From Candidatus Binatia bacterium (lineage in GTDB: Bacteria > Desulfobacterota > Binatia > UBA1149 > CAITLU01), in the NCBI GenBank assembly GCA_036493895.1, contig DASXOZ010000017.1:62001-126000 (forward strand): a stretch of 64,000 nt of DNA, given 5' to 3'. The number at the start of each line of letters is the position of its first letter. Within the stretch, counting starts at the first letter, position 1. Under the pieces are notes generated by a model, which ran no database searches, was not told the origin of the DNA, and was given only the letters and a program-made list of their open reading frames with translations. Shown here piece after piece: positions 33,358-58,800 of this stretch. The position numbers were made by a program, and so were the translations under genes.

Positions 33358-34473
33358 TCAGTCGGGCTCGACGTCGTCCAGGCGCAGGACGCGGCACGCG
33401 GGCTCGGGATGGTGCGCTGCCTTCACCCAGCGCAGTCCCATCGTGCCGCGGCGGTGCCCCGCCGTGTCGATCCAGTTGGCGAAGCCGCGGTTTTCGGCGG
33501 CAACGACGATGCGGAACGAACCGTCGGCGCGGTAATGCGTCGTGTGCTTGTTCGTCGTCACTGGCCTGTAGCGGTAGTCGAGGGATTCCATCCAGACGTT
33601 GTTCAGCTGGAAATTCCAGTACTGGCACTGCGGCGGAACGCCTTCGATGACGAGCGCCTCGTGCGGCGCGAGCTCCCACCAGCCCATGTAGAAGAAGATG
33701 TTCGGATCGCCGTGGGCGCCGCCGGTGATCTTCGGATCCATCGCAAGCAGGCGATTGGGCGTGCGGCGAAAGCCGGCGGCCCAGTTCGCGAACAGCGACG
33801 CGGTTCCCTGCACGTAAGAGGCGGCGCCGCGTAGGCCTTCGACGAGATGGGCGCTCGAAAGTGGAGCGGGAGGCGCACCGGTGCCGATGCGCTCGAGCTT
33901 GAGCTCGGCGGCAACTTCGGTTGCACGGTCGAGATAGTTCTGGCGCACGATCAGCATCGACGAATCCGGCTCGAGCTTGATCCAGTTGCCGTCGTGCGGC
34001 TGCGCCGAAAGGACGATTTCGATACCGCCGCCGGCATCGGTGCGAATCTGGCTGCCTTCGAGGTAACCGCTGCAGCCCGAGCGCGCGCCGGAGCCGTAGT
34101 GCCCGTAGTAGGCGCCGATTCCGAGATAGGCGATGGTGCCGCGCGTTCCGCTCAGGCGGTATTCGCAGGAGCCGTCGATGGCGGCGTTCTGGTAGAAGCT
34201 GTCGGGATTGTCGCAGCCGATCTTGGCCGTCTCGTGGCTGAGCCGGTAGAACGTCGGCGCCAGCGGGTCGGCGTGCTCGAGGAACTTCTCGAGGGCCAGG
34301 CGCGCGAGGCGCGTCAGGTATCGGTAGCCTTCGGCGCGGTCGAGAGCGTCACCGGCCAGGTCGCGCTCGATGACGCTGCCGGCGCTCCTCAATGCGTCGC
34401 AGAATTCGGCCCAGAGGCGGCCGCTCTCGACGAGCTCGTCGGCCTCCCTGGCCATGTTCTGCGGACCCGGCAT
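33358..34473 (-). CDS. DUF1214-domain protein
   Basis: A protein of about 371 residues. The C-terminal third is a DUF1214 domain: YWNFQLNNVWMESLDYRYRP, FANWIDTAGHRRGTMGLRW. The N-terminal region is helical (ADELVESGRLWAEFCDAL). Such proteins accompany sulfotransferases and SDRs in steroid- and xenobiotic-rich genomes; the activity is undefined. The open frame runs on upstream to 34803 through a 21-bp repeat array, so the true start is at 34473 or 34455 and the array is outside the gene. No strong ribosome binding site is visible. Confidence 0.82.
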   Translation of the reverse strand: MPGPQNMAREADELVESGRLWAEFCDALRSAGSVIERDLAGDALDRAEGYRYLTRLARLALEKFLEHADPLAPTFYRLSHETAKIGCDNPDSFYQNAAIDGSCEYRLSGTRGTIAYLGIGAYYGHYGSGARSGCSGYLEGSQIRTDAGGGIEIVLSAQPHDGNWIKLEPDSSMLIVRQNYLDRATEVAAELKLERIGTGAPPAPLSSAHLVEGLRGAASYVQGTASLFANWAAGFRRTPNRLLAMDPKITGGAHGDPNIFFYMGWWELAPHEALVIEGVPPQCQYWNFQLNNVWMESLDYRYRPVTTNKHTTHYRADGSFRIVVAAENRGFANWIDTAGHRRGTMGLRWVKAAHHPEPACRVLRLDDVEPD

Positions 34474-34524: not shown

Positions 34525-34650
34525 GAATGGGGTCAGGCACCAGAGGAATAATGTCTGGCACCAGGGGAATGGGGTCAGGCACCAGGGGAATGATGTCTGG
34601 CACCAGGGGAATGGGGTCAGGCACCATTCCTCTGGTGCCTGACCCCATTC
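34525..34650. repeat. Alternating 21-bp repeats closed by an inverted copy
   Basis: Five 21-bp units alternate between AATGGGGTCAGGCACCAGGG and AATGATGTCTGGCACCAGGG forms at 34526, 34547, 34568, 34589 and 34610 (the last shortened). The last unit runs into an inverted copy. The outer arms 34525-34549 and 34626-34650 are a perfect 25-bp inverted repeat, so the array can fold into a long hairpin. The period of seven codons keeps both strands open. It lies between the FMN-barrel gene and the DUF1214 gene. Confidence 0.92.
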
Positions 34651-34666
34651 CTTGTCCTCGCGAGTT

Positions 34667-35365
34667 CTATCCGCAGTTTCCCGGCCTGCGGTACTGGGTC
34701 GCGTGCGGCGCCGGCGCGACGCGCGGAGGTACCATGGGATCGTCGACCGGCGCCCCCGGCACCAGCCGCAGCGGGATCGTTCCGGCCCAGACGTCGAGCG
34801 CATGGTCCTCCTCGTCGTCCACCGGTCCGCCCATGCGTTCCTTCACCGAGACCTCGACGATCGGAAAGCGCACCACCAGCGTGCGCAGCACCTCGTCGCG
34901 GCTCGGCGGTCTCACCGACGGCGCGCGCCCCGGAACGATGTGCTCGACGATCGCCGCCAGCGCGCGCTCGTGCTCTTCGGCATCGGTCACCTTCTCGCCC
35001 GCCCCGTAGATCACGACGCAGCGGTAGTTCATCGAGTGGTGGAACGCCGAGCGCGCGAGTACGAGCCCGTCGATCAGCGTCACCGTGATGCAGGCCTGGG
35101 CCCCCGATGCCAGCGCGCGCAGCATGCGGTTTGCCGTCGATCCGTGCAGGTACAGCACGTCGTCGATGCGACCGTACGCGGTCGGGATGATCGCCGGCCC
35201 CGATTCCATCGTGAATGCCACGTGGCAGACCAGGCCTTCGTCGAGGATCGCGTGGACGGCGGCCCGGTCGTAACGGCCGCGCACGGCCAGGCGCTTGAGG
35301 GTCGTGCGCGCGGTGGGCGCGAATCGATCGTCGGCGTGGCTGACGGGAAGTGCGGTCGTGCTCAT
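34667..35365 (-). CDS. Pyridoxamine 5'-phosphate oxidase-like FMN-binding protein
   Basis: A 232-residue split-barrel flavoprotein of the pyridoxamine-oxidase-like/NimA group. Seen: RGRYDRAAVHAILDEGLVCH, the barrel strands AIIPTAYGRIDDVLYLHGST, and FHHSMNYRCVVIYG. It is divergent from a MocR regulator gene, an arrangement common for genes of vitamin B6 metabolism, and is probably the regulator's target. It could be a B6 salvage oxidase or an F420/FMN reductase. Confidence 0.85.
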   Translation of the reverse strand: MSTTALPVSHADDRFAPTARTTLKRLAVRGRYDRAAVHAILDEGLVCHVAFTMESGPAIIPTAYGRIDDVLYLHGSTANRMLRALASGAQACITVTLIDGLVLARSAFHHSMNYRCVVIYGAGEKVTDAEEHERALAAIVEHIVPGRAPSVRPPSRDEVLRTLVVRFPIVEVSVKERMGGPVDDEEDHALDVWAGTIPLRLVPGAPVDDPMVPPRVAPAPHATQYRRPGNCG

Positions 35366-38633: not shown

Positions 38634-38634
38634 T

Positions 38635-38725
38635 GGGGACAGGCACCAGCCGCATCGTTGGGGACAGGCACCAGCCGCATCATCTCGGCGCTGACGCACA
38701 GTTGATGCGGCTGGTGCCTGTCCCC
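38635..38725. repeat. GGGGACAGGCACC repeat cluster between convergent stops
   Basis: Two direct 25-bp units (from 38635 and 38660; core GGGGACAGGCACCAGCCGCA) and one inverted copy at 38704-38725 that is the exact complement of 22 bp in each. The cluster fills the space between the ankyrin stop (38631-38633) and the convergent gene's stop (38727-38729). It can form a long hairpin in either transcript and probably serves as a terminator. The core is closely related to the GGGGTCAGGCACC array at 34525. Confidence 0.92.
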
Positions 38726-48802: not shown

Positions 48803-48950
48803 TTTGATCCTCGCCCTTTCGGGCTGCGGATGTTTGATCCTCGCCCTGTCGGGCGCGGATGTTTGATCCTCGCCTTGTCGGGCTGCGGAGATTTGATCCT
48901 CGCCCTCTCGGGGTCCGGATGTTCGATCCTCGCCCTTTCGGGCGCGGATT
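48803..48950 (-). repeat. Five 30-bp repeats in the acetolactate synthase leader
   Basis: Units begin at 48803, 48833, 48862, 48892 and 48922 (TTTGATCCTCGCCCTTTCGG on plus). Read in the mRNA direction (minus), each has a short hairpin, GCCC-GAAA-GGGC or variants with GACA and GAGA loops, followed by GAGGATCAAA, which resembles a ribosome binding site. The last hairpin lies about 20 bases before the ilvB start. Confidence 0.9.
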
Positions 48951-49014
48951 GCTTGATTTGGGGCGGCACGGCGCCGCCCGAGCCAGCCACTATGACGCAA
49001 TCAGGCTGCGTTTC

Positions 49015-55880: not shown

Positions 55881-58800
55881 CGCGGGCATCGCAACGGTCG
55901 GCCGCGGCACGGTGGCCTCTGGTCGCGATGGGCCTGGTCTTGTGGGCCGGCATCGCGGCGGCTGCAGACGTGCACGTGACCGCGCTCGGCGATCGTGGCC
56001 CCGGCACCCTGCGCGAAGCGGTCGAGAAGGCCTCGCCCGGCGACACCGTGCACATCGACGTCCCGGGCGTGATCCGCCTGACGACCGGCGAAATCCAGAT
56101 CTCGCGCCCGATGACGATCGAAGGGCCCGGGGCGGACAAAACCTCGGTGTCGGGAGACGACCAGTACCGCATCTTCAGCATCCCCGTGCGCGAGCCGACG
56201 CCGAAAGTGAAGATCAGCCGCCTCGCCGTGATCCGCGGGCGCAGCGACGAGCGCGGCGGAGCGATCGTCAACGCGGCCGACCTCGAGCTCGACGGCGTGC
56301 TCGTCGATTCCTGCCGCGGCGACCTGGCCGGCGGCATCTACAATACAGGCCAGCTTTCGATCACGAGCAGCACGATTTCCCACAATCGCGGCTCCCTGGC
56401 CGGCGGCATCTACAACACCGGCGACGCGACGCTCGTCAACGTGACCGTCAGCGGCAATTTCGGCGAGCTGAGCGGGGGCGGGATCTACAACGCGACCGAC
56501 GCCAACGTCACGCCCAAGCGCGTCGCGCACATCGAGATTTCCAGCTGCACGATCACCGACAACCGGGTCGGCGCCGACGCGGCCGGAATCTTCAATCTCG
56601 GCGGCCAGGTGCATATCCGCAACTCGATCGTCGCCGACAACAAGAAAGGCGGCAACTGCATCGGCGCGCTGCTTTCGCTCGGGCACAACATCGACGACGA
56701 CGGCTCGTGCCGTCTCGCGTCGCCGGGCGACATTCGCCCCGGCCGCGACGTCGGTCTTGCGCGTCTGGACATGAACGGCGGCGGCACGCCGACCCACGCG
56801 CTGATCGTCGGCAGCCCTGCCATCGATGCCGGCGACAACGCGTCGTGCCCGAAGGACGACCAGCGCGGCTTCACGCGCGACGTCAGCGGCGATGGAAAGG
56901 GCACCGGGCGCTGCGACATCGGCGCGTTCGAGGCGCTGCTGAGCTGGTGCGGCAACGGCGTCGTGCAGCCGGGCGAGGAGTGCGACGACGGAAACCTCGT
57001 CGACGGCGACGGCTGCGATCGAAGCTGTCGCAGGGAAGTCTGCGGCAACGGCATCGTGCAGAGCGGCGAGGAATGCGACGACGGCAACACGGTCTCCGGC
57101 GACGGCTGCGACAGCGTCTGCCTGCGCGAAATCTGCGGCAACGGCGTGCTCCAGGCCGGCGAGGAGTGCGACGACGGCAACGTCGAGAACGGCGACGGCT
57201 GCGACTCGCATTGCCGCCGCGAGCCTTGCGGCGACGGCATCGTCGGTGCCGGCGAGCAGTGCGACGACGGCAACCTCGTCGACGGTGACGGCTGCGACTC
57301 GACCTGCCACAAGGAGGAGTGCGGCAACGCGATCGTGCAGGCCAACGAAGAGTGCGACGACGGCAACCTGCGCAACGGTGACGGCTGCGATTCGCACTGC
57401 CGGCGCGAGACCTGCGGCAACGGCGTCGTCCAGGGCTCCGAGGAGTGCGACGACGGCAACACCGCTGCCAACGACGGCTGCGATCCCACCTGCCGCAAGG
57501 AACGGTGCGGCGACGGCAAGAAGCAGACGAAAGAAGAGTGCGACGACGGCAACACCGCGGGCGGCGACGGCTGCGATCCGACTTGTCATCGCGAGGTTTG
57601 CGGCAATGGGCTGCTGCAGGCGGGCGAGGAGTGCGACGACGGCAACGTGACGGCCGGCGACGGCTGCGATCCGCATTGTCGCAAGGAAGTCTGCGGCAAC
57701 GGGCTGCTGCAGGCGGGCGAAGAGTGCGACGACGGCAACAGCACCGCCGGCGACGGCTGCGACCCGACCTGCCGCCGCGAGATCTGCGGCAACGGCCTCG
57801 TGCAGGCCGGCGAAGAATGCGACGACGGCAACCACATCGCCGGCGACGGCTGCGACCCTTCGTGCAAGAAGGAAGTCTGCGGCAACGGCATCGTGCAGAA
57901 GGGCGAGGAGTGCGACGACGGCAACAGCGTCGCCGGCGACGGTTGTGACCCGACCTGCCACAAGGAGGTCTGCGGCAACGGCATCCTCCAGGCCGGCGAA
58001 GGCTGCGACGACGGCAACCTCGTCGATCACGACGGCTGCGATTCGCGCTGCCGCGTCGAAGCGTGCGGCAACGGTCGCGTCGACAGCGGCGAAGAGTGCG
58101 ACGACGGCAACCAGAAGAACGGCGACGGCTGCACCGCCGAATGCAAGCTCGAGCGCTGCGGCGACGGCGTCGTCAACGATGGCGGCAAGGAGCAGTGCGA
58201 CGACGGCAACAACGCCGACGGCGACGGCTGCGACCACGACTGCAGGCGCGAATTCTGCGGCGACGGGGTCGTCAACGACGGAGGCAAGGAGCAGTGCGAC
58301 GACGGCAACAGCGTCTCGGGCGACGGCTGCACGCCCGACTGCGTCAAGGAGCGCTGCGGCGACGGCATCGTCAATGACGGCGGCAAGGAGCAGTGCGACG
58401 ACGGCAACGACGTTGCCGGCGACGGCTGTACTCCCGACTGCATCAAGGAGCGCTGCGGCGACGGCATCGTCAACAACAGCGGCACCGAGGAGTGCGACGA
58501 CGGCAACACGTCACCGGGAGACGGCTGCACGCCGCTTTGCCGCAAGGAGTTCTGCGGCGACGGCATCATCAACAACAACGGTCGCGAGCAGTGCGACGAC
58601 GGCAACAGCATTGCCGGTGACGGCTGCACACCAAAATGTGTACTCGAGCGCTGCGGCGACGGCATCGTCAACAACAACGGCATGGAGGAATGCGACGACG
58701 GCAACGCGGTCAACGGCGACGGCTGCGACGTGTTCTGCCACAAGGAGGCGCCTCCGCCTCCACCACCGCCGTCGACACCGCCGCCTGCTGCGCCCGTAGC

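Follow-up and report, generated by a model that had tools for sequence, protein, structure and literature searches.

A phased array of 21-bp units in a Candidatus Binatia genome, very probably one copy of a transposase-linked repeat family

What is a short run of 21-bp units, alternating between two forms and closed by an inverted copy of one of them, doing between two protein-coding genes, and how did it come to be there? The question is raised by positions 34525-34650 of the window, by which we mean the whole 64,000-nt stretch of DNA analysed here.

Structure of the array

The segment is laid out as A-B-A-B-A (n = 5) followed by an inverted A unit. An earlier note on this DNA had described five units alternating between GGGGTC and GATGTC forms, which is borne out by the (+) core starts at 34529 (A), 34550 (B, AATGTCTGGCACC), 34571 (A), 34592 (B, GATGTCTGGCACC) and 34613 (A). 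The inverted A core starts at 34634, and the spacing between cores is 21 bp everywhere, including across the switch of orientation. The closing inverted copy, said to form a perfect 25-bp inverted repeat, likewise proved correct by direct reading of the letters. The features at and around the array are as follows.

34525..34545, plus strand: unit 1, A form, core GGGGTCAGGCACC at 34529-34541
34546..34566, plus strand: unit 2, B form, core AATGTCTGGCACC at 34550-34562
34567..34587, plus strand: unit 3, A form
34588..34608, plus strand: unit 4, B form, core GATGTCTGGCACC at 34592-34604
34609..34625, plus strand: unit 5, A form, left arm of the terminal hairpin
34626..34651, minus strand: inverted A unit; its first 25 nt, 34626-34650, are a perfect reverse complement of the first unit, 34525-34549
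34608..34651, no strand: terminal 19-bp perfect inverted repeat with a 6-nt loop, in which unit 5 pairs with the inverted A unit; folded as DNA it has -23.7 kcal/mol, z -9.3
33358..34473, minus strand: DUF1214 protein gene (PF06742), start 51 nt from the array
34667..35365, minus strand: pyridoxamine 5'-phosphate oxidase (PPOX) family gene (PF12900), stop codon 15 nt from the array
38634..38725, no strand: the window's second member of the wider repeat family, of the GGGGACAGGCACC subfamily, cores + + - at 38635, 38660 and 38713, with an inner segment of 40 nt between the last two

Fold z-scores of the array (127 nt) and its hairpin (44 nt), taken as DNA or RNA, range from -7.4 to -9.6, the two strands of the array scoring -8.7 and -9.6 as RNA and -7.4 and -8.8 as DNA. 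Matches to the core pattern with at most one mismatch exceed chance in the window, where 11 are found against a shuffle mean of 3.2, and none of 100 shuffles reached 11. Over 34525-34626, Tandem Repeats Finder reports 96% matches for a 42-bp period and 81% for a 21-bp period, which makes the A-B dimer the module that repeats. The two-letter alternation that had been called unusual is thus present, but it is a local effect of repeating this 42-bp dimer; the B core with its flanking bases (the 14-mer ATGTCTGGCACCAG) occurs twice in the whole genome, both times within this array.

A dispersed family with a fixed order of orientations

Copies elsewhere in the genome, on which the earlier reading of the array as a REP-like element depended, are plentiful. 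The core GGGGTCAGGCACC occurs 238 times exactly (124 forward, 114 reverse) in G000, the 4.50-Mb genome of the window, and its reversed control not once; the related core GGGGACAGGCACC has 39 copies. Cluster statistics were taken from 64 segments (212,155 bases, holding 159 of the 238 exact copies), which comprise 100 of the 238 core places, the transposase locus described below, the window, and a further 47 places picked by a TAAT/TGAT pattern, so that the flank set is biased toward TAAT/TGAT. All 70 clusters have (+) units ahead of (-) units, and 41 of them contain both kinds. Exactly 21 bp separates 65 of 105 adjacent core pairs (22 ++, 27 -- and 16 +-), a count made in 41 regions and the window with up to three mismatches allowed and therefore including some chance hits. 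The longest head-to-tail run has up to 8 units.

A second class has longer inner segments. Of the inner gaps between 30 and 90 nt (n = 15), lengths of exactly 40 nt and 46 nt account for four each, two pairs of the 40-nt segments share sequence by BLAST, and 38660-38725 of the window is one member of the 40-nt class. The dispersed inverted pair forming a hairpin, a feature of REPINs, is thus found here in both shapes. Within arrays the foot of the unit reads GGAAT; on their outer side it is often TGTAAT, and the GT[AG]G tetranucleotide is absent from the hairpin foot in this family.

These observations bear on whether the array might simply be an ordinary minisatellite, coding or non-coding, that arose in place. 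Its units do run head to tail at 21 bp and open frames pass through it, yet 238 dispersed copies, a fixed inverted-pair grammar and the link to a transposase speak so plainly against such an origin that we give it hardly any weight. The codon-length period noted earlier is real as a 21-bp period, but no coding meaning was found for it, as the array lies in an intergenic insertion and some cores elsewhere are spaced by 53 or 59, neither divisible by three. A coding repeat was considered for the open frames that cross the array and was dropped, since the sister genome G001 lacks the segment and the DUF1214 gene there starts after it. Helical phasing was also considered, 21 bp being two helical turns; the related family of G001, however, uses 27 bp, and unit length is therefore the simpler reason for the period.

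Outermost cores are often preceded by a 17-nt stretch with a consensus of approximately nATNMC-N6-TGTAAT (for example G000:C10:23207 and G000:C16:35809). TATNNC stands at the tail position in 20 of 110 flanks, from the set biased toward TAAT/TGAT, against 0.4% of controls. Nine pairs of flanks share at least 15 of the 17 bases, where column shuffles give about 0.01, and in two pairs of unlinked loci all 17 tail bases are equal while the next 17 differ. Two readings of the tail were tried and set aside. One, a guide/cleavage-site pair, takes its idea from the guide pairing of IS608 in the part of PMC8266576 that we draw on; symmetric positions gave no clear covariation (best -12/-5, p 0.04, eight pairs), and the genome holds a single perfect dyad ATTAC-N6-GTAAT. 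The other, in which TATNNC would be a -10 box, was given up because a crude gene call often places the ends of genes at this position.

A candidate transposase and its relatives

The search for a transposase with matching repeats was successful. G000 has two Y1_Tnp genes, unlike each other, and one of them, P0001 on contig C77, is flanked by GGGGTCAGGCACC repeats on both sides; at this locus (L031) the gene lies between five (+) cores at 1083-1179 and two (-) cores at 2023-2056, with a 21-bp period, and the best inverted match between its flanks scores 41. P0001 has 233 aa with the motifs NHWH and YIEANP. Pfam assigns it to Y1_Tnp (E 2.6e-15), and the NCBIfam model for REP-associated tyrosine transposases gives 79.2 bits, with a cut-off of 80. 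It aligns with PDB 4er8 (TnpArep, E 0.005), the HuH motif as H-W-H and the Y---NP motif being in register, and 4er8, which we take to come from E. coli, is the only PDB sequence that matches P0001 at E 0.1 or better. A reading frame at 2024-2533 of L031, presumably Nudix-like, has its ATG start seemingly right at the edge of the right-hand repeat.

The second Y1 gene (locus L032, contig C59, 1-832) has upstream of it a repeat of its own, GCAGCCCTTCAGGGCTGC, mostly with a 30-bp period and with four exact copies in the genome, all on C59; its product passes the NCBIfam REP-associated cut-off with 97.4 bits. At 48803-48957 the window carries a 30-bp tandem repeat of 5.2 copies with a GCCCT-TCGGGC inverted core, the same period as beside this second transposase.

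Di Nocera et al. (2013, PMC3733652), in the portion of the text used here, define a TIRtron as a Y1 transposase gene between terminal inverted repeats (TIRs), give GGGGWSAS as common to some of them, call TIR families moderately abundant, and state that some TIRtrons have dispersed TIR families. In P0001 and its surroundings we find the HuH and catalytic tyrosine motifs, inverted repeats on both sides, the GGGGWSAS motif in the terminal repeats, here as GGGGTCAG, and TIR copies dispersed as a family of 238 exact cores. Since GGGGWSAS and the protein motifs occur without a GTAG foot, P0001 appears, by sequence, to belong with the TIRYT branch, relatives of the RAYTs, and not with the classical GTAG-REP RAYTs. 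The earlier comparison with REP-like sequences moved by RAYTs is supported, with a refinement: dispersed repeats do flank a Y1 transposase gene, and the branch appears to be that of the TIRYTs, the GTAG foot being absent.

The likeness to TIRtrons extends to dispersed copies, some of them in dimers or clusters. Here, however, one period governs all contacts, the order is fixed as + then -, runs reach 8 units, and a sister species has another core and period; the same portion of PMC3733652 makes no mention of unit-phased arrays. P0001 also resembles TnpA-Y1 subclass 2.1 as given in part of Quentin et al. (2018, PMC6006769), with NH-x-H and Y---NP motifs, GGGG[AT][CG]A[CG] in flanking inverted repeats and a median length of 238 aa against 233, an agreement in motif and length. 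According to that part of the paper, REP-like sequences were not found beside subclass 2.1 genes, whereas in G000 they are numerous and their pairs fold into strong hairpins. With REPINs, as far as the sections of Bertels and Rainey (2011, PMC3116915) in hand describe them, the family shares dispersed inverted pairs, tandem arrays and clusters beside the transposase gene, our REPIN-like class having 40- or 46-nt inner segments; the alternating GI/GIII REP arrays of those sections are spaced at 112/72 bp, against a 21-bp period and no GTAG foot here. IS200/IS605 elements have a transposase of the same HuH/Tyr family and hairpin ends, but here only two unlike Y1_Tnp genes stand against 238 repeat copies. 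Neither GGGGTCAGGCACC nor its reverse complement was found in the literature searched. The kind of element, a TIRYT with TIR repeats, is already known, but the strictness of the array rules is unusual.

Among 98 genomes searched, its own included, the GGGGTCAGGCACC core occurs in 14, with at most three copies outside G000, and a P0001 match occurs in 42, the best outside G000 being a transposase with 48% identity in G001, a genome from the same genus. Copies of GAAATCGGGGACAGACACTGATTTC flank this G001 transposase. The corresponding core, CGGGGACAGACACTG, was counted 63 times in G001 and not once in six other genomes searched (G000 among them), and the GGGGTCAGGCACC core is absent from G001. 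In 47 of 48 G001 clusters + comes before -, with - + in one, and 51 of 60 adjacent pairs lie at 27 bp; the two genomes share an array grammar and differ in core and period. Two genomes of one genus whose TIRYT-like enzymes differ, and in each of which the enzyme gene adjoins a separate family of dispersed, strictly phased repeats, offer a natural pair for studying hairpin recognition, divergence of specificity and the growth of REP-like arrays.

Relatives of P0001 in named genomes (24 loci) are mostly from Planctomycetota MAGs, with a few labelled Deltaproteobacteria, Acidobacteriota, Actinomycetota and others. In a set of 29 transposase loci, for which L039 alone was used of L039 and L062 (the same contig) and the weaker matches L063-L066 were left out, flank inverted repeats score at least 14 at 24, the P0001 and G001 loci among them, against 1 of 580 shuffles; direct flank repeats occur at 4 of the 29. 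Many of the flank repeats at relatives' loci read AAAAGGGGAC or AAAAGGGGTC. The loci below a score of 14 are L033, L034, L051, L055 and L056; the DNA upstream of L055 is short, and at L034 copies of AAAAGGGGTCAG stand in direct orientation in place of inverted repeats. We note that G013, a genome of the same class, has 21 matches to P0001, spread over many contigs, and that over 2,135 bases a contig of G013 shows no difference from one in the MAG Deltaproteobacteria bacterium isolate NC_groundwater_697.

Insertion, growth and possible function

The gene order sulfotransferase, DUF1214, PPOX is the same in G001, with protein identities of 80, 77 and 69%. From the PPOX stop to the DUF1214 start there are 193 nt in the window and 55 nt in G001 (the latter counted by hand from the sequence), and the difference of 138 nt is close to the 127 nt of the array. 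Because the gene order is kept and the shorter gap in G001 lacks the array, we read the array as an insertion, probably a gain in the species of the window and not a loss in G001. The exact insertion point is not fixed by this comparison because the intergenic DNA of G001 has diverged too far, and G005, where the DUF1214 and PPOX matches lie further apart, provides no empty site.

Taken together, we hold with considerable confidence that the array is one copy of a non-autonomous family of REPIN/TIR type, whose cognate enzyme is most likely P0001, a single-strand HuH/Tyr transposase of TIRYT type. In this scenario P0001 would recognise the imperfect hairpin of a GGGGTCAGGCACC unit with its foot in single-stranded DNA, would cut and rejoin DNA at the unit hairpin or foot, and might thereby move segments bounded by inverted repeats, of the form (+)m...(-)n with the GGGG ends outward, mostly to the ends of genes. 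One such segment perhaps entered the PPOX/DUF1214 gap after the split from the sister species; the B variant would then have arisen inside it, and the A-B dimer would have been repeated locally as a 42-bp block to give A-B-A-B-A and the closing inverted A. Recognition, cleavage and mobility are, like the direction of change and the exact way in which the array grew, what we infer from these patterns. We count against this reading that the array in the window lacks the outer 17-nt tail of many other copies, that P0001 falls just under the NCBIfam cut-off, that a genome with three GGGGTCAGGCACC cores (G009) has no P0001 match, scattered cores thus also occurring without the enzyme, and that the test for dimer-wise growth, to which we now turn, is moderate.

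Dimer-wise copying is well supported at 34525-34650. Other runs of the family alternate too, for instance as ACAGGAAT/AGGGGAAT beside the transposase gene and as GGGG/AGGG/GGGG triplets, and units at lag 2 are more alike than at lag 1 (permutation p 0.034, a moderate result from nine runs of at least four units), by which dimer-wise copying across the family is only suggested. How the units are added may be seen in two ways, either as slippage or unequal recombination, or as additions made by the transposase itself, in which unit-length single strands would be joined at the foot of an existing unit and the period would equal the unit length; the latter is a rival to local duplication as the growth route and not to the reading as a repeat family. 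It would account for the equal period in ++, -- and +- contacts, 21 bp here and 27 bp in G001, of which the equal +- spacing is left unexplained by slippage alone, and the transposase gene itself bears phased runs of units at both ends. On the other hand, the repetition of the A-B dimer in the window array, with a B unit that occurs nowhere else, fits plain duplication, and no unit-length intermediate is known here. We therefore regard transposase-made additions as a tentative proposal. Still more speculative is the generalised form, in which a TIRYT acts as an array builder, adding hairpin units singly and in fixed phase to the ends of inverted-repeat elements, with unit length setting the period (21 vs 27 bp) and each species having its own enzyme-repeat pair.

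The array might instead be a selected regulatory element, working in the upstream gene's mRNA as an attenuator or as a stabiliser of the 3' end. It starts 15 nt past the stop of the PPOX-family gene on the same strand, its RNA fold has a z of -8.7, and clusters lie mostly at convergent (18) or co-directional (25) places and seldom at divergent ones (4). These counts, for 70 clusters, come from a crude stop-to-stop gene call with unreliable gene starts; 17 others were at edges or unclassed and six inside frames, the window array among the six, its stop-to-stop frame extending past the DUF1214 start. Terminator-like, promoter-like and Rfam matches were all absent at the array, however, the sister species has no array at the same place, and the presence of hundreds of copies next to unrelated genes suggests in the first place an element that spreads. 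We thus consider a regulatory origin improbable, while the array may still have some effect on mRNA.

One other repeat-rich stretch of the window, 56947-58726, consists of long imperfect tandem repeats with periods of 93, 99, 186 and 279, and looks like repeat-rich coding sequence.
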